DNA from: Planctomycetaceae bacterium
Lineage (GTDB): Bacteria; Planctomycetota; Planctomycetia; Planctomycetales; Planctomycetaceae
DNA: 64,000 nucleotides
Direction of reading: 5' to 3'
NCBI GenBank assembly: GCA_021732845.1
Contig: JAKFUF010000080.1
Span: 1 to 64,000, forward strand
Shown here: in pieces, positions 29,867-43,109 of the stretch
Numbering within the stretch: position 1 is the stretch's first letter
Layout: each line of letters opens with the position of its first letter
Position numbers and translations under genes: made by a program
The notes under the pieces: generated by a model
The model's input: only the letters and a program-made list of their open reading frames with translations
What the model was told of the DNA's origin: nothing
The model's database searches: none

Positions 29867-32800
29867 ATGAGCAGCCTTCTGCGCACTCTCGAAATGTCCG
29901 CAATTGAAGCCTTGGGATGGGCTCTGCTCCACTTCCTGTGGCAGGGCACGTTGGTTGCGGCGCTCACCACCGGGCTGCTCTTTGCCATGCGGCGAGCCTC
30001 GGCAGGAAGCCGGTATCTCGTTTTGTGCGGCATGCTTGCTCTAATGGTCGCGTGTCCCGTGGCTTCGTGGAGCTGGATTGCCGCCACTTTGCCAGCGACC
30101 GACCGCAAAGTGGCATCACGAGAGACTCCGCTTGCGGGAACATCTCCTTCACCCATCGTGCCGAGGATGGTTGAACTTGATGGAGCGGTCTCCGAGCCAC
30201 CGCGCGGAGAGGCCATGCCGCAACTGCGCGACCAGATTGAAGGCGAGCGTCTCGGAAATCCAGGCCGCGTCGCGGTGGCCAACGACGCACGCTTCCAAAC
30301 TGCACTGCGAATGATCGAGCCCGCTCTGCCTTGGTTTGTGGCGGCGTGGCTCACGGGAGTGTCCATCCTGTCGCTACGGCTGCTGGTCGGCTGGCGGACC
30401 GTGCATCGGTTGCGATCTGTCGCGGTGACACCGGCAGCCGAGGCCTGGCAGGCGCGGATGCGAGATCTCGCCGCACGGCTGCGTGTCACGCGAACGGTTC
30501 GCCTGGTGGAGTCGGCACTGGTCGATGTCCCCACGGTCATCGGGTGGCTCAGGCCGATGATCCTGGTTCCGGCCAGTGCCCTGACCGGCCTGACCCCGCG
30601 AGAACTGGAAGCGATCCTGGCCCACGAACTGGCACACGTTCGCCGGCACGACTACCTCGTCAACCTGATGCAGACTGTCATTGAGACGCTGCTGTTTTAT
30701 CACCCGGCCGTCTGGTGGCTGTCTGGCCGCATCCGTGAGGAACGCGAGCATTGCTGTGATGATCTCGCCGTCGAGGCCTGCGGCAGCCGGCTGGCTTTTG
30801 CCCAGGCCCTGACCACGATGGAAGAGTTGCGCTCGCGGGACATTCGCCATCGCCCCGCGGCCCTCGCGCTCGCCGCCGATGGAGGCTCGTTGCTGGCCCG
30901 CATCCGCCGCCTCGCCCTGGGCAGTGCCGCTGACGCGCGCCGCTCCAACTGGTGGGGGGCGAGCCTCATCTCGCTGGCGTTCGTCGCGGTGCTGGGCGTT
31001 GCCGCCTACATCGCCGCGGCGGCCGCCGCCGATCAACCCAACCAACCCAACGCAGAAACTGCAATCGAATCGAAACTCGACCCGGAATGGGGACCAGTCG
31101 TCAACGGCCTGCGCATGCGCGTCGTTCCTGTGCTGGCCACGATGGATGAGAACGCGATTGATGTGACGCAGCGTGTTTCGAAATTTGAATCTCCAAACGA
31201 TGTCGCCTTGGCGGTGGAGATCGAAAATGTCTCCGACGAGCCCGTCAAACTGGCGGGAACACGGTATGGTGACAATTTTGGCAATGCGAAGGGAAAGTCG
31301 AACTCGGACCGGTTCGGGCAGTACTTGTTTGCCATCGACTACCTGAGTGCCAACGACGAACCCATCGAACGACCGGAAGTCAGTTCGGTCGGTGGGCCCC
31401 GAGCGGTCGACGGTGTGCTGCTGGAAACGGTTGAGCCGAAGCAAAAACTGCGTGTCCTCCTGCGTCCGGCGAGGTGGATGAGCGTGCTTTCGCAGCGGCC
31501 ATTGCTGGGAAAGCAGCGGGCCGTGGCGCGCTATCTGGGAATCTCACCCTCGGGCAAAGAGCCGGCTCCCCAGCACCCGGTGGACGAGATCGTGGCACCG
31601 GCCGTCGAGTTTGAAGTTCGTGGGCCGGGCTATCGTTCAACCCAGGCCCCGCTGCCGGGGCTCGGCGAAGAGGATGTGGCGAGGAATGCCGACGGTACCG
31701 ACGTGGATCCGGGAAAATTTCTCGTCTGGGGCGAAGTCACCAACGGACTGCGAGCGGCCCTGGAGATCGTTCCCGAAGAGGGGCGACAGATGTTGAGCCA
31801 CGGCACGAAGCCAATGTTAAAACTGCATGTGCAGAATGTGGGCGAGCAAACGGTTTCGCTGGCATCGCTGACGAGGCTCCCCGAATTGCTGACGACCGTG
31901 ACCAACGACAAGTCCGAGGCCATTCCGTTCCAAGGTCACTTGTCGACCGGCGTCACCCCAGCAGTGCGGATCGTGCTGAAGCCGCGACAGACTGTGACGT
32001 TTGATGCGGGGAGTCTGGGGCTCGCCGTGACGAAGGCACGGGCGGAAGCGTTTGAGCGTCCCACCATGCGAACGCTGGTCGCCCCCAGTGGCAAATACTC
32101 TCTGCAGGCGGTGGAGCGATTCGGACTCAGCTTTCAGATGCGGGACGGAAACGGCCAATTGTTCGCGCCACTGGAGAGGGATTGGAAAGGCGAACTGAAA
32201 ACAGGCGTCGCCACCGTCAACATCTCCAACGAGATCATCGACTGTGAAATCGTCGATGCCGTGACTGGGCAGTTGATCTCAGACACCACGACCAGTTTTG
32301 GATTCATTAAACCGAAGTCAGAAAACGCCCCGGAAGAGCGCGTGGGTCTGATGGCCTGGGGCCCAAAAGGGCCGGGTCGCATCTACTTCTCGATTCCCGA
32401 CCAGATCATGCAGCGGCCGGACCGTGAAGAACTCGAAGTCCAATGGGGTACGGGAAATCATCCGGACTACGAAAATTATGCACCTGCCGAGCGCATCCCG
32501 CTGAAACAGTTCTTCACCGTCGGACCGAAGGCGGCTCGTGAAGCTCTGAGCAAAATCAAGCTCACGCCAAAGGCGCAGGCCGCGAAGCCGGTTGCCGCTG
32601 TGGACGCGAAAGCCGAGGTCAACCCAAAGGGCGAAGCTGAACCGTTGCCGAAGGGGGAAGCCGCACAGACGCTGTTCAAGACTTGGAAGCGCGGGGCACG
32701 TATCAACGGAAACATCCCTGGCGGAGCCCTGGGACCGCTGGTGCGGGTGATGACCAACTTCGTCAAGCACAACCCCACCCATGAAGCGGCGCCCAAATTC

Positions 32801-35800
32801 ACCGAGTTGCTCAAACGGATTGACGTGACTCATGACTGGACCGTAAAGGAGGCCGCCGCGCTGCTCGACGAAGTGACGGCGATCTATGCCAGCCTGCCGG
32901 AATGGGTGGAAGAGGAAGACCGGTTCACGATTGGTCGCGAAGTCCAGGCTGGGCGTCCCCTGCCGGCGGATTTGGAAAATGCGCCATGGGGCGAGGCCAA
33001 ACCGAATGGCCTGCGAACGGCGTGGCTGCTTGAGCCACGTGCGGAGCAATATGCCATCGGTGCCCGACTGAGGTCGCGGATTCTCATTCATAACTCGGGT
33101 AAGGAAACAATCTTCTTCGTGGCGAATTCGTTCAACCAGGCGGGAGGCGAGGCACGTGACGCGAAGGGCGCGGAGGTCAAAATGTCCGCCACCTACTGGA
33201 CAACGATCGGGCAGTTGATCGTCTTCCGGCTGGCCCCCGGCCAGTACTGCGAACTGACCGCACCAGGAATCTGCGTCGGGACCATGAACAATGACGACGA
33301 GGAGTGGTCGGATGTGCGCATCGGTGCCTGGATTGAGGCGCAGGCGGGACATGAAGTGACCTTCACACCCGAGCCCGTGTCGGTGAACGGCACGCGCGGT
33401 GGGGGTGAGGGCGACCCGAAGATGTGGCTCGGATTCATCAAGGAGCGGCTGAGCCTCGACACGCCGCTGCCAGCCGACGCCGCCGAACGCAAGCCGATTC
33501 TCGCGCGAGTGACGCTCGACCTGTTCGGCACGGTTCCGACCGCGGAGGAACTCGCGGCCTTCACGGCTGACGGAGCCACGGCGTTGGATGCGCTGGCGGA
33601 ACGGCTGGCCCAGCGGACCGGCACCACCCCCTTCACGGGTAGCTTGCAGGGTGGAGCGACCAAGTTTCGCGTGGTGGCCAATGATGCGGAGGCGGCGAGC
33701 AAGCCACGGGTCTGTGTCGGGCCGGGGAACCGCACGCTCGGCGGGAATGCGCGGCTCGTGATCGTGCAGAAGCCGGTGGGCGACCGCCGGGTGAACGAGG
33801 CGCACATCAAGTTTTCTCAGCCCGACCCGGAAGCCGCGCGGCCCCCCGAAGCGTATGCGATCAAGCTTCCCGATGGACACCTGACCTGGGCCATTGCGTG
33901 GGAACGGGGCTCCAAGGTGCTGTGGGTCGCGGAGAAAGGCCGTGTTCGCAGTTACCGCTTCGGTGTTCCGCATAAAGTGCTGGAGGCGCGCTTTGAGCCC
34001 GGCAGCATCATTGATGTGCCGGAGCAGTTCTACCCGATCGGTTGGCAGAGCGACAAAAGCACGCTGTGGCTCACTCAAAAAGGGATCCTCCACACCTACG
34101 ACTTCTCCTTCCCCGGGCAGCGGCGCGATTCGCGGTATGAGGCCGGAGCGCGGATTCAGATCCCCGAGGAATTTCGCCCAGGACAGGCTCCGAAGCCTGA
34201 CGAATCGAAAAAGGAGGGTGCCGAAGCGAAGCGCGTACTCCCACAACGGACGCATTTTTTCAACAAACAGCACTCAGCCGTCGGCGTGATGACCGGCAAC
34301 GAAGTGAAATTTGTCATCGCCTATGCGGGCTTCCTGTCCTCGGGCATGCAGAGTTGGGAACGCGGCGATCCCGCCGCTGGCTGGGGGTTCGACGGCTTCT
34401 TGTATCTCATCGACCAAGAGAAGACGCGCACGGCGGGCAAGAACGTGGACAAGCGGCGGTTCACCGTCAAATTCACCTCGGACGCTCCGGACACGTTGTT
34501 TCTCGATGGAAAGCCATACGACCTGACGCAGCCAGGGCGGGTGTTCGTCCTCTTCGACACCGGCGAACCACAGCGGAGCGAGCGAACATTGCCGTTGCAG
34601 GACCAGGGCGACCTCGTGGCGATCGGCAAGCTCATTGAAGTCGAACGCGATCAACGCTTCTCGCTGTCCCATGCCACGCAGGAATTCAACCAGGAGAACA
34701 ACCGGCTTGGCATCGGGCTCGATCAACCACCACTGACAGAGGACGAAGTTGTCGCGGCGATCAAGCAGAGCAAATGGGAGATCAAATCGAATCGGCTCAA
34801 CGAAAAGGAGATCGCCGCGTTCAAGACGGTGACTGAGACGCGTCTTCTGCCAGAAGGCTCCTATTTCCAGGCATGGACGAACGACCAGCACGAGACGCTG
34901 CTCGTCAAAAACTACTGGCTGGTCGAACTCTACGTGCCCGCGATGGGTCACGACGGATTCGTCGGCTTCGTGATTCGCCACACCAAGCTGGCGGACGAAA
35001 AGATTGATCCGAAGTTCATCGCGTGGGGCCGACCAGATGCCGATGGGTTGTCGCTTGGGATCTGTCTCACACCGCGGAAAACCCAGTACCAGGTCGGCGA
35101 GCGCGTCCGCTTGCGGCTGTTCGTGCGCAACGACAGCCAGAAGTTTGTCGAGACAACCTGGGCCAACACCACCCACCCGATGCCGGACGATTTCTCCGTC
35201 ACCGACGAAGCCGGCGCGAAGGTCGCCGTGCACATCGCCCACGACCAATGGCGACACCCGTGGCTCTCGGGCTACATCGAAGGCGGAATCGCGGCCGGAG
35301 ACATCCACGCCTTCAACGTCCCCTACGAAATCAGCATCGGTGGGGGGAAATCCGCCGAGGCCAATAAGTTGATTGGGCGCATCATTGAGGCCCGCGCGGG
35401 CCAGACATTGAACCTCAAGGTTCGCTCAGCCATTGGAAGCGAGCGCACGCCCGGCGCCAACGAGCTGGCCCCGGAATCGGGAAGCGTCGCGTTTCAGGTC
35501 GCACCGCGATCAGGCACGCCAGCGAACGACAATGCCGGCGTCCAGTCGGTTCCGCCTCGTTTGGAGTTCCGGATCGTGGCTCAACCCGCCGACGGCAAGG
35601 CTGGGCCACGCGCGCCGGCGGACTACCAAACGCGGGACTACCCCGGCAACTCGGTCATCGGGCGGATGGTGGCCAAAGACAAAGGCTTCATCTGGGTTGA
35701 AGCCGTTGGGTTCACCGACGAGCCGCTTCCCGAACAGCCCGTCGAGCGGCTGCGTGGCGGCAAGATCCGCGAGGTCTTGCTGGCCGACACGCCCGAACAT

Positions 35801-36085
35801 GTCCTGTCCTTCAACGGCAAGTGGTCCATTGTAGACTGCCGAGTCGTGCCCGATGAAAACGGCGGCGACCGCTTCCGCATCGAGGTCAAACTCAACGCGG
35901 CGGGCGGCGAGGCGCTGCGGAAACTCACAAAGTCACACCCTGGTCAGCCCTTGGCCATTGTTGTCGAAAACAGAGTCCTCACCGCCCCCGTGATCAACAG
36001 TGAGATCGGGCGGGACATCGCCATCACGGGAAGATTCACTCGCGAGCAGGCGGAGAAAATCGCGGCAGTGCTGCGGCCGCGCTGA
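29867..36085 (+). CDS. Giant BlaR1-like M56 metallopeptidase sensor with repeated extracytoplasmic modules and SecD-like C-terminus
   Basis: Predicted 2072 aa. Residues 1-390 form the M56 membrane domain: hydrophobic helices near 18-40, 50-72, 150-170 and 365-390, zinc motif HELAH at 253-257 and the acidic EREHCCDD near 290. The tail has no penicillin-binding domain. It contains four copies of a WG..xxGL-led beta module, starting near residues 406, 620, 1040 and 1718. A stretch near 1205 (VTLDLFGTVPTAEELAAF) recalls the helix of DUF1549 proteins. The last 180 residues resemble the SecD P1-head fold (IEVKLNAAGGEALRKLT, LAIVVENRVLTAPVINSEI). It probably senses an envelope signal through the tail and cleaves BlaI. 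The ligand is unknown. Frame is continuous and codon use uniform. Confidence 0.88.
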   Translation: MSSLLRTLEMSAIEALGWALLHFLWQGTLVAALTTGLLFAMRRASAGSRYLVLCGMLALMVACPVASWSWIAATLPATDRKVASRETPLAGTSPSPIVPRMVELDGAVSEPPRGEAMPQLRDQIEGERLGNPGRVAVANDARFQTALRMIEPALPWFVAAWLTGVSILSLRLLVGWRTVHRLRSVAVTPAAEAWQARMRDLAARLRVTRTVRLVESALVDVPTVIGWLRPMILVPASALTGLTPRELEAILAHELAHVRRHDYLVNLMQTVIETLLFYHPAVWWLSGRIREEREHCCDDLAVEACGSRLAFAQALTTMEELRSRDIRHRPAALALAADGGSLLARIRRLALGSAADARRSNWWGASLISLAFVAVLGVAAYIAAAAAADQPNQPNAETAIESKLDPEWGPVVNGLRMRVVPVLATMDENAIDVTQRVSKFESPNDVALAVEIENVSDEPVKLAGTRYGDNFGNAKGKSNSDRFGQYLFAIDYLSANDEPIERPEVSSVGGPRAVDGVLLETVEPKQKLRVLLRPARWMSVLSQRPLLGKQRAVARYLGISPSGKEPAPQHPVDEIVAPAVEFEVRGPGYRSTQAPLPGLGEEDVARNADGTDVDPGKFLVWGEVTNGLRAALEIVPEEGRQMLSHGTKPMLKLHVQNVGEQTVSLASLTRLPELLTTVTNDKSEAIPFQGHLSTGVTPAVRIVLKPRQTVTFDAGSLGLAVTKARAEAFERPTMRTLVAPSGKYSLQAVERFGLSFQMRDGNGQLFAPLERDWKGELKTGVATVNISNEIIDCEIVDAVTGQLISDTTTSFGFIKPKSENAPEERVGLMAWGPKGPGRIYFSIPDQIMQRPDREELEVQWGTGNHPDYENYAPAERIPLKQFFTVGPKAAREALSKIKLTPKAQAAKPVAAVDAKAEVNPKGEAEPLPKGEAAQTLFKTWKRGARINGNIPGGALGPLVRVMTNFVKHNPTHEAAPKFTELLKRIDVTHDWTVKEAAALLDEVTAIYASLPEWVEEEDRFTIGREVQAGRPLPADLENAPWGEAKPNGLRTAWLLEPRAEQYAIGARLRSRILIHNSGKETIFFVANSFNQAGGEARDAKGAEVKMSATYWTTIGQLIVFRLAPGQYCELTAPGICVGTMNNDDEEWSDVRIGAWIEAQAGHEVTFTPEPVSVNGTRGGGEGDPKMWLGFIKERLSLDTPLPADAAERKPILARVTLDLFGTVPTAEELAAFTADGATALDALAERLAQRTGTTPFTGSLQGGATKFRVVANDAEAASKPRVCVGPGNRTLGGNARLVIVQKPVGDRRVNEAHIKFSQPDPEAARPPEAYAIKLPDGHLTWAIAWERGSKVLWVAEKGRVRSYRFGVPHKVLEARFEPGSIIDVPEQFYPIGWQSDKSTLWLTQKGILHTYDFSFPGQRRDSRYEAGARIQIPEEFRPGQAPKPDESKKEGAEAKRVLPQRTHFFNKQHSAVGVMTGNEVKFVIAYAGFLSSGMQSWERGDPAAGWGFDGFLYLIDQEKTRTAGKNVDKRRFTVKFTSDAPDTLFLDGKPYDLTQPGRVFVLFDTGEPQRSERTLPLQDQGDLVAIGKLIEVERDQRFSLSHATQEFNQENNRLGIGLDQPPLTEDEVVAAIKQSKWEIKSNRLNEKEIAAFKTVTETRLLPEGSYFQAWTNDQHETLLVKNYWLVELYVPAMGHDGFVGFVIRHTKLADEKIDPKFIAWGRPDADGLSLGICLTPRKTQYQVGERVRLRLFVRNDSQKFVETTWANTTHPMPDDFSVTDEAGAKVAVHIAHDQWRHPWLSGYIEGGIAAGDIHAFNVPYEISIGGGKSAEANKLIGRIIEARAGQTLNLKVRSAIGSERTPGANELAPESGSVAFQVAPRSGTPANDNAGVQSVPPRLEFRIVAQPADGKAGPRAPADYQTRDYPGNSVIGRMVAKDKGFIWVEAVGFTDEPLPEQPVERLRGGKIREVLLADTPEHVLSFNGKWSIVDCRVVPDENGGDRFRIEVKLNAAGGEALRKLTKSHPGQPLAIVVENRVLTAPVINSEIGRDIAITGRFTREQAEKIAAVLRPR

Positions 36086-38900: not shown

Positions 38901-40718
38901 ATGGACTACGAGCTTCTCAAACGGCGCGGTGCGTTGAATGACGGGCCATCCAATCTGGATGAAGCGGTGGCGGAGTGGGTCAGCGCGCCTGCTACCCCGA
39001 AAGAGCCATCGCTCTTGGCGGTCGACACCTTGAGCGGGGAGATTCCGAGCGAGTTGCTGGCTCGCATTCCAGAGTCCATTTGCCGCGAGAACCTCTGCTT
39101 CCCCATCGCCGCCAAGGACGACCGGCTGTACGTCGCCGCGATTGACGCCGACGACCTGGCGCTGAAGGACAAGTTGACGTTCGTCCTCGGTGCTGATGTG
39201 CGGCTGTTGGCGGCACCAGCGGAGAAGATCAAGGCGGCGATCAACCGCCACTATACTGATGACAGGCTGACATCCGTCGACTCGATGCTCTGCGAGTTCA
39301 CGGAGACTGCTGTCGATTTTTGCGAGACCGAATCCTCCGACTCAACCAGCGACTCGCTCCCGCGCCCGGTGCGACCTCCCCTGTTTGCAGCACCTAATGC
39401 CTCCGCGACCTCCCACGTCAAAAGACGGGCGATCGCCGCGTCTGCCGGTGTTGAACACCGCCTTCCATCGGAATCGAGGACCAGCATGTTCCATTACACG
39501 ATCCCCGAAGGCTGGCGCGTCTTGCGGACCCTGCCCAATGGGGCTCGTGAAGTCCTGATTGGCCCGCGCCGTGTGTTTCGCGGTTGGTCGGAATTCCTGG
39601 TGATGGCCCACCATGTGGCTCACCCCGGCGACTACCTGATCGTCCGCTTTCGCGATGGGCATCAGGAACACCGGATTGGTCCGGCCGAAGTCTGGGAAGA
39701 CCCGCGTATTCATGACCGGATCGAACGCGCTGAAGGGCTGCAGATCGACTCCAAGGAGGCGATTGTGGTCTATTCTCATACGGGAGCCACGGATCAGCAG
39801 CCGACCGCGACGAACCGCCGCATTGTCTACGGTCCAAACCTGTTTGTGCCCCAACCCGGCGAATGGCTGCACACCTTTTCTTGGCATGCCTCCAAAGGCG
39901 GGTCCAAGGGGGTCGAGAAAACCCCGAACGGTCTGGTCTTCCAAAAACTGTGGCTCATGCCCGACCAGATGTATCACGATGTCCACGATGTTCGCACATC
40001 CGATGACGCGGTGCTGACCATCCGGCTGATGATCTTCTTTGAACTCGTGAACATCGAATTGATGCTGGATGCGACGCACGACCCGATTGGCGATTTCGTC
40101 AACGCCGCGACCGCCGATGTCGTGGAGTTCACGGGTCGCTACGACTTTGAAGCGTTCAAGCACAACACCGAAAAACTGAACCAGATCGGTACGTATCAGC
40201 AGTTGGCCAGTCGTGCCAAGCAGATCGGCTACCACATCCACACCGTGGTCTACCGTGGATATGGTGCGGCCAGCTCACTCCAGCAGATGCACAATCAGGC
40301 GATCGAAGCCCGCACAAAACTCCAGTTGGACCGGGCCACCGAGCAGCAGGCGCAGGAACTGGAAAGCTACCGGCTGGAAAGCCAGTTGGCCCGCGCTGCC
40401 AAACGGCGTTCAGAACAGGCGAACGAAGTGGCGCACGATCTCGAACTCAACCACCTGCGGGCCAAGAACGAGCTGGAGATCAAGGAAACCCAGCAGGCGT
40501 TCGATCGCCACCAGCGGCTGGAGGACGCCAAGGCGCGTGACACCGTGGAGCGGATGTCCGCCGCACAGAAGCAGGCCCACCTGGCCTCACTGCGCGAGAT
40601 GGGGGTCGAGTTAACATCCTACCTCACGCAGAACCGGGCCGACCAAGTCTTCGAGTTCCGCGGCCAGGCCGCGCCGCATGTGCACCTGGATCCGCCGAAG
40701 CTGGCGAAAAAAGGGTAG
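38901..40718 (+). CDS. Fusion of GspE N-terminal-like domain and vault-shoulder/SPFH-like protein
   Basis: Predicted 605 aa. Residues 45-120 resemble the GspE/MshE N-terminal cyclic-nucleotide-like domain (IPESICRENLCFPIA, AINRHY). A Ser/Pro-rich linker (140-195) leads to a second part that begins MFHYTIPEGWRVL. This part has beta-repeat units with IGPRRV and IGPAEV, then RRIVYGPNLFVPQPGEWLH, PDQMYHDVHDVRTSD and FEAFKHNT. These match the order of the shoulder domain of eukaryotic major vault protein, an SPFH relative, followed by a long coiled helix (440-560). An internal ATG at 39486 with GAGGA 6 bp upstream could start a shorter vault-like protein. Function is unknown; particle formation is inference. 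Confidence 0.8.
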   Translation: MDYELLKRRGALNDGPSNLDEAVAEWVSAPATPKEPSLLAVDTLSGEIPSELLARIPESICRENLCFPIAAKDDRLYVAAIDADDLALKDKLTFVLGADVRLLAAPAEKIKAAINRHYTDDRLTSVDSMLCEFTETAVDFCETESSDSTSDSLPRPVRPPLFAAPNASATSHVKRRAIAASAGVEHRLPSESRTSMFHYTIPEGWRVLRTLPNGAREVLIGPRRVFRGWSEFLVMAHHVAHPGDYLIVRFRDGHQEHRIGPAEVWEDPRIHDRIERAEGLQIDSKEAIVVYSHTGATDQQPTATNRRIVYGPNLFVPQPGEWLHTFSWHASKGGSKGVEKTPNGLVFQKLWLMPDQMYHDVHDVRTSDDAVLTIRLMIFFELVNIELMLDATHDPIGDFVNAATADVVEFTGRYDFEAFKHNTEKLNQIGTYQQLASRAKQIGYHIHTVVYRGYGAASSLQQMHNQAIEARTKLQLDRATEQQAQELESYRLESQLARAAKRRSEQANEVAHDLELNHLRAKNELEIKETQQAFDRHQRLEDAKARDTVERMSAAQKQAHLASLREMGVELTSYLTQNRADQVFEFRGQAAPHVHLDPPKLAKKG

Positions 40719-40896: not shown

Positions 40897-42708
40897 TTAC
40901 GCCACGCGTGAGCGTGGGGCTTCGGCTTCAAAGTTGACGAGATTGCGAATGGCGTAGCTCGTGCGATCCTGCGACTCGAAGTAAGTTCGTACCGCGACTT
41001 CGCCCAAGGCACCCAGGCAGAAGAACTGCGTCCCGAGCATCGCCGAGAAGACACTGCCCAAAAGCAGCGGGTTGCCAGTCATATCGACACCGCTGATGAG
41101 CTTCATACCAATCGTCAGCAGACCGGCGAGCACACCCACGCCGACCGAGGCCAGGCCGAGATTGCCAAACAGCTTCATCGGGCTGACAAAGTATTGGGTC
41201 AGGAACTTCACGGTCAACAGGTCCAGCATCACGCGCACGGTGCGCGACAGGCCGTACTTGGACGTTCCGAACCGCCGGGGATGGTGCTTCGTCACCACTT
41301 CGACACAGCGGGCTCCGCGGTAGTGCGCCAGGATGGGGATGAAGCGGTGCATTTCGCCATACAGGTGCATGTCGCGGGCGATCTCGCGCCGCAGCACCTT
41401 GAGCGTGCATCCGAGGTCGTTCACGGGAAAACCGGTTGTCTTGGAAATAATGCGGTTGGCGATCATCGATGGCAGCCGCCGGTCGAGGAACCGGTCGTGC
41501 CGGTTCTTACGCCAACCGTGGACCAGGTCGTAACCCTGTTCCAGTTTCGCCAGCATCATCGGGATGTCGGTCGGATCGTTCTGCAGGTCGCCGTCCATCA
41601 GCACGATGGCATCGCCCGTGGCATGATGCAGCCCGGCGTTCATGGCGGCGGTCTGTCCAAAATTTCGACGGAACTGAATCAGCTTGACCCGCGTGTCGCG
41701 GCTGGCCAGTTCGCGCAACAGCGTGGTGGTGCCATCCGTCGAACCATCGTCAATCAGCACGATTTCAAAGGGCAGCCGCAGGCTCGTCAGCGTGGGCAGC
41801 AGCGCATCGTACAACCGGTTGACGTTGTCGCGTTCGTTGTACATCGGGACGACGATGGAAACGGAAGCCACGGGCCGCAAGGGCAGCACGCAGGGCAGCT
41901 CCGAATTCGCTTCGGTATCGAGTTCTTCTGCCTGCGGCTCTTGTTCGATTTCGGCGGTCGATGGTGTCTCAGCTCCGGACCAGCGGAGTTCCTGCCGGTC
42001 GAACCAGGCGCTGAGCGAAGTCTGGCCGAAGAAGCAGAGATACACCGCATAGCCGGCGGCCGAGCCCCACAGCGTGTCGCTCAAGAAATGCGAACCGACC
42101 TCGACGCGTTCAAACCCCACGAGGGCGGCGATCAACAGAAAGTACCAGCGGGCCTTGGGGAACAGCACCGCCAGACTCGCAGCCAGCGCGACGGCCGTGG
42201 CCGCATGCGCCGAGGGAAAACTCTGCCCCGCCGAACCGGCCGTGATTCCCGGAAACACAGCCCGAAACGACGCGTAGAACGGAGCGCCATTGGGGTTTTC
42301 GTACGGTCGGGCGCGGGCGATCGTCATCTTCAAGAGATTGGCCAGCATACCGCCGCCTGCGGCACACGCCGCCACGCGCGGGATCGTCCAGCGGCGACTG
42401 GGGCTGGCAACGACAAGGCCGCCCAAGACCAGCACGATGATGATGGCGTGGCCCAGGAGTTCCACATCCTCAAGGATGCCGCTCCACTTCCGCAGCACCT
42501 GCTCATGAACCAACTTGGAGCACAACTGAGCATCGACCAACAGGGCCAGCACGCCGAGAATCGCCAGCACGATCACGATGCGCCACCCGGCTTGAATGGG
42601 GGCGCTGGCGGACAGGGGAGCCACGAGTTGCGACTCACGCGAATCAGTTTGTGGGCTGAGTTCCGCGGAATTGGTGGCTTCACTCGTCGTGTGTGGCTCC
42701 ACAGCCAT
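40897..42708 (-). CDS. PAP2 phosphatase-GT2 glycosyltransferase fusion
   Basis: Predicted 603 aa. The N-terminal PAP2 domain spans roughly residues 45-215, with KMTIARARP, FPSAHAATA and GSHFLSDTLWG carrying the catalytic His and Asp residues. After a Glu-rich linker, the GT2 domain starts VSIVVPMYNERDN near 290, with DDGSTDGT and LMDGDLQNDP metal motifs, in the dolichyl-phosphate mannose synthase branch. Two or three C-terminal membrane helices end the chain. The fusion suggests a coupled job: dephosphorylating a polyprenyl diphosphate, then glycosylating the resulting polyprenyl phosphate. That is inference. ATG 42708 has GGGAGG 6 bp upstream. It is divergent from the YVTN propeller gene. 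Confidence 0.9.
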   Translation of the reverse strand: MAVEPHTTSEATNSAELSPQTDSRESQLVAPLSASAPIQAGWRIVIVLAILGVLALLVDAQLCSKLVHEQVLRKWSGILEDVELLGHAIIIVLVLGGLVVASPSRRWTIPRVAACAAGGGMLANLLKMTIARARPYENPNGAPFYASFRAVFPGITAGSAGQSFPSAHAATAVALAASLAVLFPKARWYFLLIAALVGFERVEVGSHFLSDTLWGSAAGYAVYLCFFGQTSLSAWFDRQELRWSGAETPSTAEIEQEPQAEELDTEANSELPCVLPLRPVASVSIVVPMYNERDNVNRLYDALLPTLTSLRLPFEIVLIDDGSTDGTTTLLRELASRDTRVKLIQFRRNFGQTAAMNAGLHHATGDAIVLMDGDLQNDPTDIPMMLAKLEQGYDLVHGWRKNRHDRFLDRRLPSMIANRIISKTTGFPVNDLGCTLKVLRREIARDMHLYGEMHRFIPILAHYRGARCVEVVTKHHPRRFGTSKYGLSRTVRVMLDLLTVKFLTQYFVSPMKLFGNLGLASVGVGVLAGLLTIGMKLISGVDMTGNPLLLGSVFSAMLGTQFFCLGALGEVAVRTYFESQDRTSYAIRNLVNFEAEAPRSRVA

Positions 42709-43109
42709 TGCGCCTCCCTGCGCCTCTGGTAGATGAGTTTTTGGCCTGGCATTGTGGGGCGAAGGCGATTCCGCCTTCCCCGAGTGGGCCAAACCAAGGC
42801 GTTGAATATCCAAACGCCCCCAGATGGTCAAGGTGGACAGGCCTGTACACACGGACAGATCGGACGGCTGGCTAGTTTTCAAAATCAGCCGGAACGCGTT
42901 AGCGTCCGGTTCCAGAATTTACGAGATCGCCGCTCTTTGGCACGGGTCGAACCGGGGCCTAACGGCCTCCGGCTGATTCGGCTTTCGCCAGCTTCAAAAA
43001 CTGGACAGCCCTGCAGACTGATAGGAGACGGTCGAAAAACGTGGCTCAAGATGGTATTGAACAGACCCAACACATCATCCATCCGGTGACATTCGAAAGC
43101 GGGCGACCG
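42709..43109. other. Divergent intergenic region with palindromic elements
   Basis: This 401-bp stretch separates the PAP2-GT2 gene and the YVTN gene. It holds a short hairpin GAAGGCG-ATTC-CGCCTTC (about 42761-42778) and the long CGTTAGCG-type palindrome (42883-42978). Promoters are not obvious. Confidence 0.5.
42883..42978. repeat. CGTTAGCG-type palindromic element
   Basis: The left arm (42883-42912), containing AATCAGCCGGAACGCGTTAG, is complementary to the right arm (42949-42978), containing GCCTCCGGCTGATT, with a few mismatches around a 36-bp spacer. The inner CGGAACGCGTTAGCGTCCGG is also self-complementary, so nested hairpins form. The sequence looks like a short interspersed palindromic repeat. 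Confidence 0.65.

Follow-up and report, generated by a model that had tools for sequence, protein, structure and literature searches.

The locus and its encoded protein

The window, i.e. the whole stretch of DNA analysed, is a 64,000-nucleotide segment of contig JAKFUF010000080.1 from a Planctomycetaceae bacterium. It contains an intact ORF of 605 amino acids with an ATG start, which encodes an MshEN domain, a linker and a core of 410 residues, in this order. Core residues are numbered from an internal ATG at 39,486. The features of the gene, all on the forward strand, are as follows.

38,901–40,718 (+): long-form coding sequence, 605 aa, stop codon within the range (ORF calling)
38,901–38,942 (+): N-terminal peptide MDYELLKRRGALND, resembling the YxxxxxxGALQE start of MshEN-less relatives and unmatched in some relatives
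39,027–39,263 (+): MshEN/GspE-N-like domain, aa 43–121, without the c-di-GMP motif (Pfam; motif from PMC5013675)
39,264–39,485 (+): linker, aa 122–195, of low conservation in the relatives compared
39,476–39,480 (+): internal Shine-Dalgarno-like GAGGA, 5 nt before ATG 39,486
39,486–39,488 (+): internal ATG, proposed start of a 410-aa short form (start codon and Shine-Dalgarno counts in relatives)
39,486–39,617 (+): vault-like repeat 1, core 1–44 (predicted structure, fold match)
39,618–39,749 (+): vault-like repeat 2, core 45–88 (predicted structure, fold match)
39,750–39,935 (+): vault-like repeat 3, core 89–150 (predicted structure, fold match), with near-invariant W127, H129, F131, W133 and H134
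39,936–40,271 (+): shoulder/SPFH domain, core 151–262, the most conserved part (profile and fold match)
40,272–40,598 (+): predicted cap helix, core 263–371, 109 residues (98, 109, 120 or 131 in relatives)
40,599–40,691 (+): conserved C-terminal tail GVELTSYLTQ..ADQVFEFRG...HVHL (alignment; low model confidence)

The core carries the motifs VYGPNLFVPQPGE, LMPDQMYHDVHDVRTSDD, MIFFEL, GDFVNAA and FEAFKHN in succession, followed by a long helix. This is the order, from a V.GP-type strand to a coiled helix, that a preliminary description of the sequence had likened to the shoulder of the eukaryotic major vault protein (MVP). The repeated IGP motifs it had noted are three GP turns (core residues 26–27, 65–66 and 116–117) that are invariant throughout the family. 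A near-invariant block spans core residues 127–161 (window 39,864–39,968) and includes W127, H129, F131, W133, H134, K145 and PDQ159–161; these most conserved residues sit at the junction of repeat 3 and the shoulder. In human vaults, ADP-ribose or NAD is bound at the shoulder (PMC13174449), and the W-H-F-W-H...K...PDQ block is possibly a ligand or interface site. No hydrophobic N-terminal segment or membrane anchor was found in the protein, whose 19-residue hydropathy maximum lies inside the SPFH strands at aa 371. Matches to Rpf1_C and other weak Pfam matches were dismissed as chance level.

Relationship of the core to the major vault protein

Searched against the PDB as a single sequence, the 410-aa core gave no match. 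A profile of 24 family members placed MVP at the top (E = 0.0024, aligned to MVP residues 476–612) and HflK second (E = 0.0092). The model of the core (pLDDT 79.6, pTM 0.46) comprises 150 beta-rich residues, an SPFH domain and then a 109-residue helix; because of the low pTM, the orientation of the repeats relative to the shoulder is uncertain. Foldseek ranked eleven MVP chains first with this model (E 3e-14 to 3e-10), the best other SPFH protein following at 3.7e-8. VIA-align superposed the model on MVP over 341 residues (Z 15.4, 10.8 Å), with a range among the best MVP chains of Z 13.9–15.4, 313–362 residues and rmsd 10–13 Å, and in other MVP chains model residues 1–382 were collinear with MVP 320–769. 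The large overall rmsd presumably reflects differing domain angles in the predicted structure. Sequence identity to MVP is 16–18%. Crystal structures of stomatin SPFH domains aligned with the core model over 109–112 residues (VIA-align Z 13.6, 2.0–2.1 Å), so the SPFH fold is present.

These results could also be read as those of an ordinary soluble SPFH scaffold of the flotillin/HflK type, in which the vault likeness is simply the shared SPFH fold plus a helix. HflK, flotillin, erlin and stomatin are indeed good matches to the core as well, and Band_7 is weakly detected in some family members: Pfam reported no Band_7 match for the window protein, while a sister-clade member reached 17 bits (cut-off 23.6). 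Core residues 1–158 were modelled alone, from 47 sequences, so that the repeats could be judged with no contribution from the SPFH domain (pLDDT 88.4). The top 15 Foldseek rows for this part were all MVP, with probability 1.00, and the next, unrelated row stood at E 0.31, which upholds the earlier suggestion of vault-like N-terminal beta units. In the superposition, 142 residues fell on MVP 320–519 (2.8 Å, Z about 7), and comparison with the first MVP repeats (residues 5–166) gave Z up to 8.8 (3.9 Å, 133 residues). With the SPFH domain excluded, the beta part thus matches only MVP repeats along its entire length, whereas flotillin and erlin cover just 42 of its residues, and MVP tops every list. 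We consider the ordinary SPFH scaffold unlikely.

Sequence profiles gave a compatible picture for the beta part, which matched six full-length bacterial MVPs in a profile–profile comparison at P = 1.2e-6; the shoulder alone had weak sequence scores against MVP. As a control, Band_7 proteins from this genome, eight in all and each used as a single sequence, scored no better than 0.018 against the MVP profile; since that profile was built from six sequences, the comparison taken alone is not an even one. The Pfam cut-offs for MVP_shoulder and Vault repeats were passed by none (best E 0.012 and 0.19, in relatives), and matches below the cut-offs comprised MVP_shoulder in five members and Vault_3 in two, with Vault_3 at 0.026 in the sister clade.

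The fold match of residues 1–158 and the profile match of the beta part together indicate that three MVP-type repeats are present, and the modelled core is very probably MVP-like in architecture. By computation, its parts correspond in order to the last three repeats, the shoulder and the cap helix of MVP, with no membrane anchor. The MVP kinship proposed in the preliminary description, which had named MVP and band-7/SPFH structures as the comparisons to make, therefore stands for repeats, shoulder and cap helix; it does not extend to repeat number, three instead of nine, or to the Pfam cut-offs. The outcomes named there as speaking against it, a profile placement outside both families or a prediction lacking MVP-like repeats and shoulder, did not occur. 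The protein is a vault-like SPFH protein; its size, its number of repeats and its Pfam scores place it outside MVP proper.

Distribution and phylogeny

Homologues of the core were found at 42 loci in other genomes (48–80% identity). Their hosts are Planctomycetota, Myxococcota and a few bins labelled Deltaproteobacteria or Proteobacteria, and include the genera Gemmata, Singulisphaera, Limnoglobus, Zavarzinella and Nannocystis, which have cultured members. The gene is sparsely distributed, being present in 9/294 and 12/392 sampled Planctomycetota genomes and in 5/189 and 10/313 sampled Myxococcota genomes. Its own genome carries a single copy, alongside eight ordinary matches to Band_7.

A tree of 54 cores separates a short clade B (about 405 aa, without an N-terminal extension) from a long clade A. 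The MshEN carriers form one group inside clade A (support 94/88), and MshEN was therefore probably gained once, in Planctomycetota. Full-length MVP homologues of about 750–1000 aa (L063–L068, in genomes G123, G191, G134, G065, G178 and G081) were detected above the Pfam MVP_shoulder cut-off in 6/199 sampled Planctomycetota genomes.

The fold match to eukaryotic MVP is clear, and the gene could on that ground descend from part of a eukaryotic MVP gene that bacteria took up. Such an origin is highly improbable: the family consists of two deep and internally very divergent bacterial clades, its identity to MVP is only 16–18%, its tail and length pattern are peculiar to it, and full-length MVPs exist separately in other Planctomycetota.

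Lengths of the cap helix

Between conserved anchors, the cap helix measures 98 residues in 9 sequences, 109 in 41, 120 in three and 131 in one, so that the length differences are multiples of 11 in all 54 sequences. By our own count, the tree implies roughly eight separate length changes, each of them a multiple of 11, an outcome with a chance probability near 1/11 for any single change. Three helical turns comprise eleven residues, and the packing face would thus be kept across all lengths. Steps of this size are as expected if the helices need to pack laterally in a cap. Coiled-coil periodicity is weak, low at the heptad value and not decisive. In SPFH proteins, the length of the CC1 helix has been related to copy number by y = 0.1782x + 10.22 (PMC12624060); extrapolated to this family, the regression gives 29.6 subunits for 109 residues and 28–34 over the family, 11 residues being worth about two subunits.

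An internal start and two probable products

The preliminary description had pointed to the internal ATG at 39,486 with its Shine-Dalgarno (SD) sequence and asked whether a 410-aa product is translated from it. A start codon (ATG or GTG) occurs at the matching position in 35 of the 42 long-form (clade A) genes, and 25 of these 35 have an SD ahead of it, scored as a string of at least four bases at the usual spacing; the figure for other Met/Val codons is 10%. As a null, synonymous codons were reshuffled according to each gene's own usage with the amino acids kept. This gave 5.05/35 on average, with a maximum of 12, and the observed 25 was reached in 0 of 2000 trials. Reduced to one gene per lineage (<72% identity), the SD is present in 12/17 against 3.3 expected (null maximum 9). 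It also recurs in three of four clade A relatives outside the first set. Clade B genes start at, or within one or two codons of, the place equivalent to 39,486, and two of three further ones have an SD-like GGGAG or GGGGAG ahead of the start. In layout, the 410-aa short form corresponds to the sole product of this sister clade.

Alternatively, the 605-aa form may be the sole product and the internal SD a by-product of codon or amino-acid constraints. The internal start codon is absent in seven of the 42 genes, some genes with the ATG have no SD, and GGAG-like strings are favoured by glycine and arginine codons. The reshuffling preserves the amino acids and nevertheless falls far short of the observed count, in the full set as in independent lineages, and the figure for other Met/Val codons, the new relatives and the start of the sister clade all speak against a by-product; we regard a single product as rather unlikely. 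The internal ATG is very probably a real second start, and both forms, of 605 and 410 aa, are probably made. Comparison among relatives strongly supports two products for most lineages, and the 410-aa product suggested earlier has gained that support short of direct proof. The two-form arrangement is not universal in the family: the internal start codon is missing from the seven long-form genes mentioned, and the SD at that site from several Gemmataceae. In L021, L022, L028 and L029 the internal signal is absent (three have TTC, the fourth an ATG but no SD), and these genes have a strong SD at the long start, the reverse of most relatives.

The N-terminal part

The GspE-like front recognized in the preliminary description is the Pfam MshEN domain (aa 43–121, E = 2.4e-17, 63.1 bits against a cut-off of 23.1), the only confident Pfam domain of the window protein. 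NCBIfam PilB and GspE gave weak matches to the N-domain only, far below cut-off, and no ATPase domain follows the N-domain in the window protein. The MshEN motif that binds c-di-GMP has 24 residues (PMC5013675). The tandem RLGxx...LxxxLxxQ motifs are absent from the MshEN domain of the window protein and its relatives, and c-di-GMP sensing through this domain was rejected on that ground; of the five further MshEN loci of the genome, two show the motif. A role in protein binding is the likelier one, because the c-di-GMP motif is missing from the sequence.

pN/pS is about 0.5–0.7 in the N-terminal part and 0.1–0.3 in the core. With fewer amino-acid than synonymous changes, the N-terminal part is translated and under purifying selection, though looser than that on the core. 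Clade A members without MshEN begin with a YxxxxxxGALQE-type peptide, and the similarity of MDYELLKRRGALND to it makes the long start at 38,901 credible.

Alternatively, the protein could serve type II secretion or type IV pili as an accessory, with MshEN/GspE-N as its central element. The MshEN match is above cut-off and the genome has five more such loci. Against this, MshEN is confined to one clade of the family, no ATPase domain is present, and no secretion or pilus gene lies beside the gene in the window. An accessory role of this kind is improbable.

Genomic neighbourhood

No neighbouring gene or potential partner recurs beside the gene beyond close relatives. Association with a mobile element was rejected, as no match was found in plasmids or phages. 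In the window, a convergent single ORF at 40,897–42,882 (−) combines PAP2 phosphatase and family-2 glycosyltransferase domains, and an ORF of 2072 aa at 29,867–36,085 (+) begins as an M56 (BlaR1-type) peptidase, continues with a PSCyt2-like stretch and carries a SecDF P1-head domain at its C-terminus.

TROVE-domain genes co-occur with the vault-like gene in Planctomycetota (4/9 gene-carrying genomes, 10/237 others, p = 0.0007) and in Myxococcota (3/10 and 24/303, p = 0.046), statistics that ignore relatedness and genome size; three of the four Planctomycetota belong to one family, and the genes are unlinked. As a clue to a vault ribonucleoprotein, this co-occurrence is a lead only. The window genome encodes a TROVE-domain protein (L104, G000:C19:78912-79124), and within family f1, as sampled, TROVE was found in 3/3 genomes with the vault-like gene and in 0/10 listed without it, relatedness being uncorrected.

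A proposed vault-type cage

On balance, we favour the view that the gene specifies two forms of a short, vault-like bacterial cage protein of the MVP-type SPFH kind. Translation from 38,901 and from the internal ATG would yield the 605-aa and 410-aa forms, and the subunits would associate laterally into a soluble, membrane-free dome of about 30, with the helices as its cap and the vault-like repeats as its open rim. That the subunits form a ring or dome appears likely. The short form would make up most of the wall and the long form would be incorporated occasionally, with its MshEN-like adaptor and N-terminal peptide flexibly tethered at the rim so as to hold a partner, cargo or membrane machine. 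The placement of the adaptor at the rim is plausible but somewhat doubtful. Eukaryotic vaults hold TEP1. The most elaborate version of the proposal, a Planctomycetota/Myxococcota mini-vault that is a two-isoform cytosolic cage, closed or half-open, with a size set in 11-residue steps and perhaps a TROVE/Ro RNA–protein cargo, is speculative and as a whole unlikely.

To our knowledge, descriptions of vault walls usually treat them as eukaryotic, and we know of no settled purpose for vaults. According to published statements, prokaryotes lack vaults (PMC9778704) and MVP repeats are found only in the vault (PMC13100048), while one review mentions putative bacterial MVP homologues and calls a bacterial origin of MVP unresolved (PMC7916137). 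No bacterial protein of the present build was found in the open-licence literature searched. The family appears to be new as a bacterial build and a variant of the MVP/SPFH type, a vault-type cage protein by predicted anatomy. A 410-aa protein in genera with cultured members offers a small system in which to study the assembly, size control and function of vault-type cages. The 11-residue steps provide a simple prediction of how cage size could be set, and the internal start points to a way in which one gene could supply both plain and tagged subunits to a cage.

Comparison with known systems

PilB, GspE and MshE share the MshEN/GspE-N domain with the window protein, whose MshEN lacks the 24-residue c-di-GMP motif and an ATPase and is instead fused to a cage-type protein. 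The SPFH proteins HflK/C, flotillin, stomatin, prohibitin, erlin and QmcA also have an SPFH domain followed by a long helix, and follow a related dome-forming principle (PMC12624060). MVP repeats precede this domain in the core but not in those proteins, most of which are membrane-associated, typically with an N-terminal anchor, unlike the window protein. The full-length bacterial MVP homologues share MVP-type repeats and the shoulder with the core but have many repeats, pass the Pfam MVP_shoulder cut-off and occur in other genomes.

Eukaryotic MVP has nine repeats in about 850–900 aa and builds a 78-subunit barrel of two 39-mers. Like MVP, the core combines MVP repeats, a shoulder/SPFH domain and a long cap helix without a membrane anchor. 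It differs in having three repeats, a cap helix of 109 residues and a C-terminal tail of its own within 410 aa, to which the window protein adds an N-terminal MshEN arm and two probable products.
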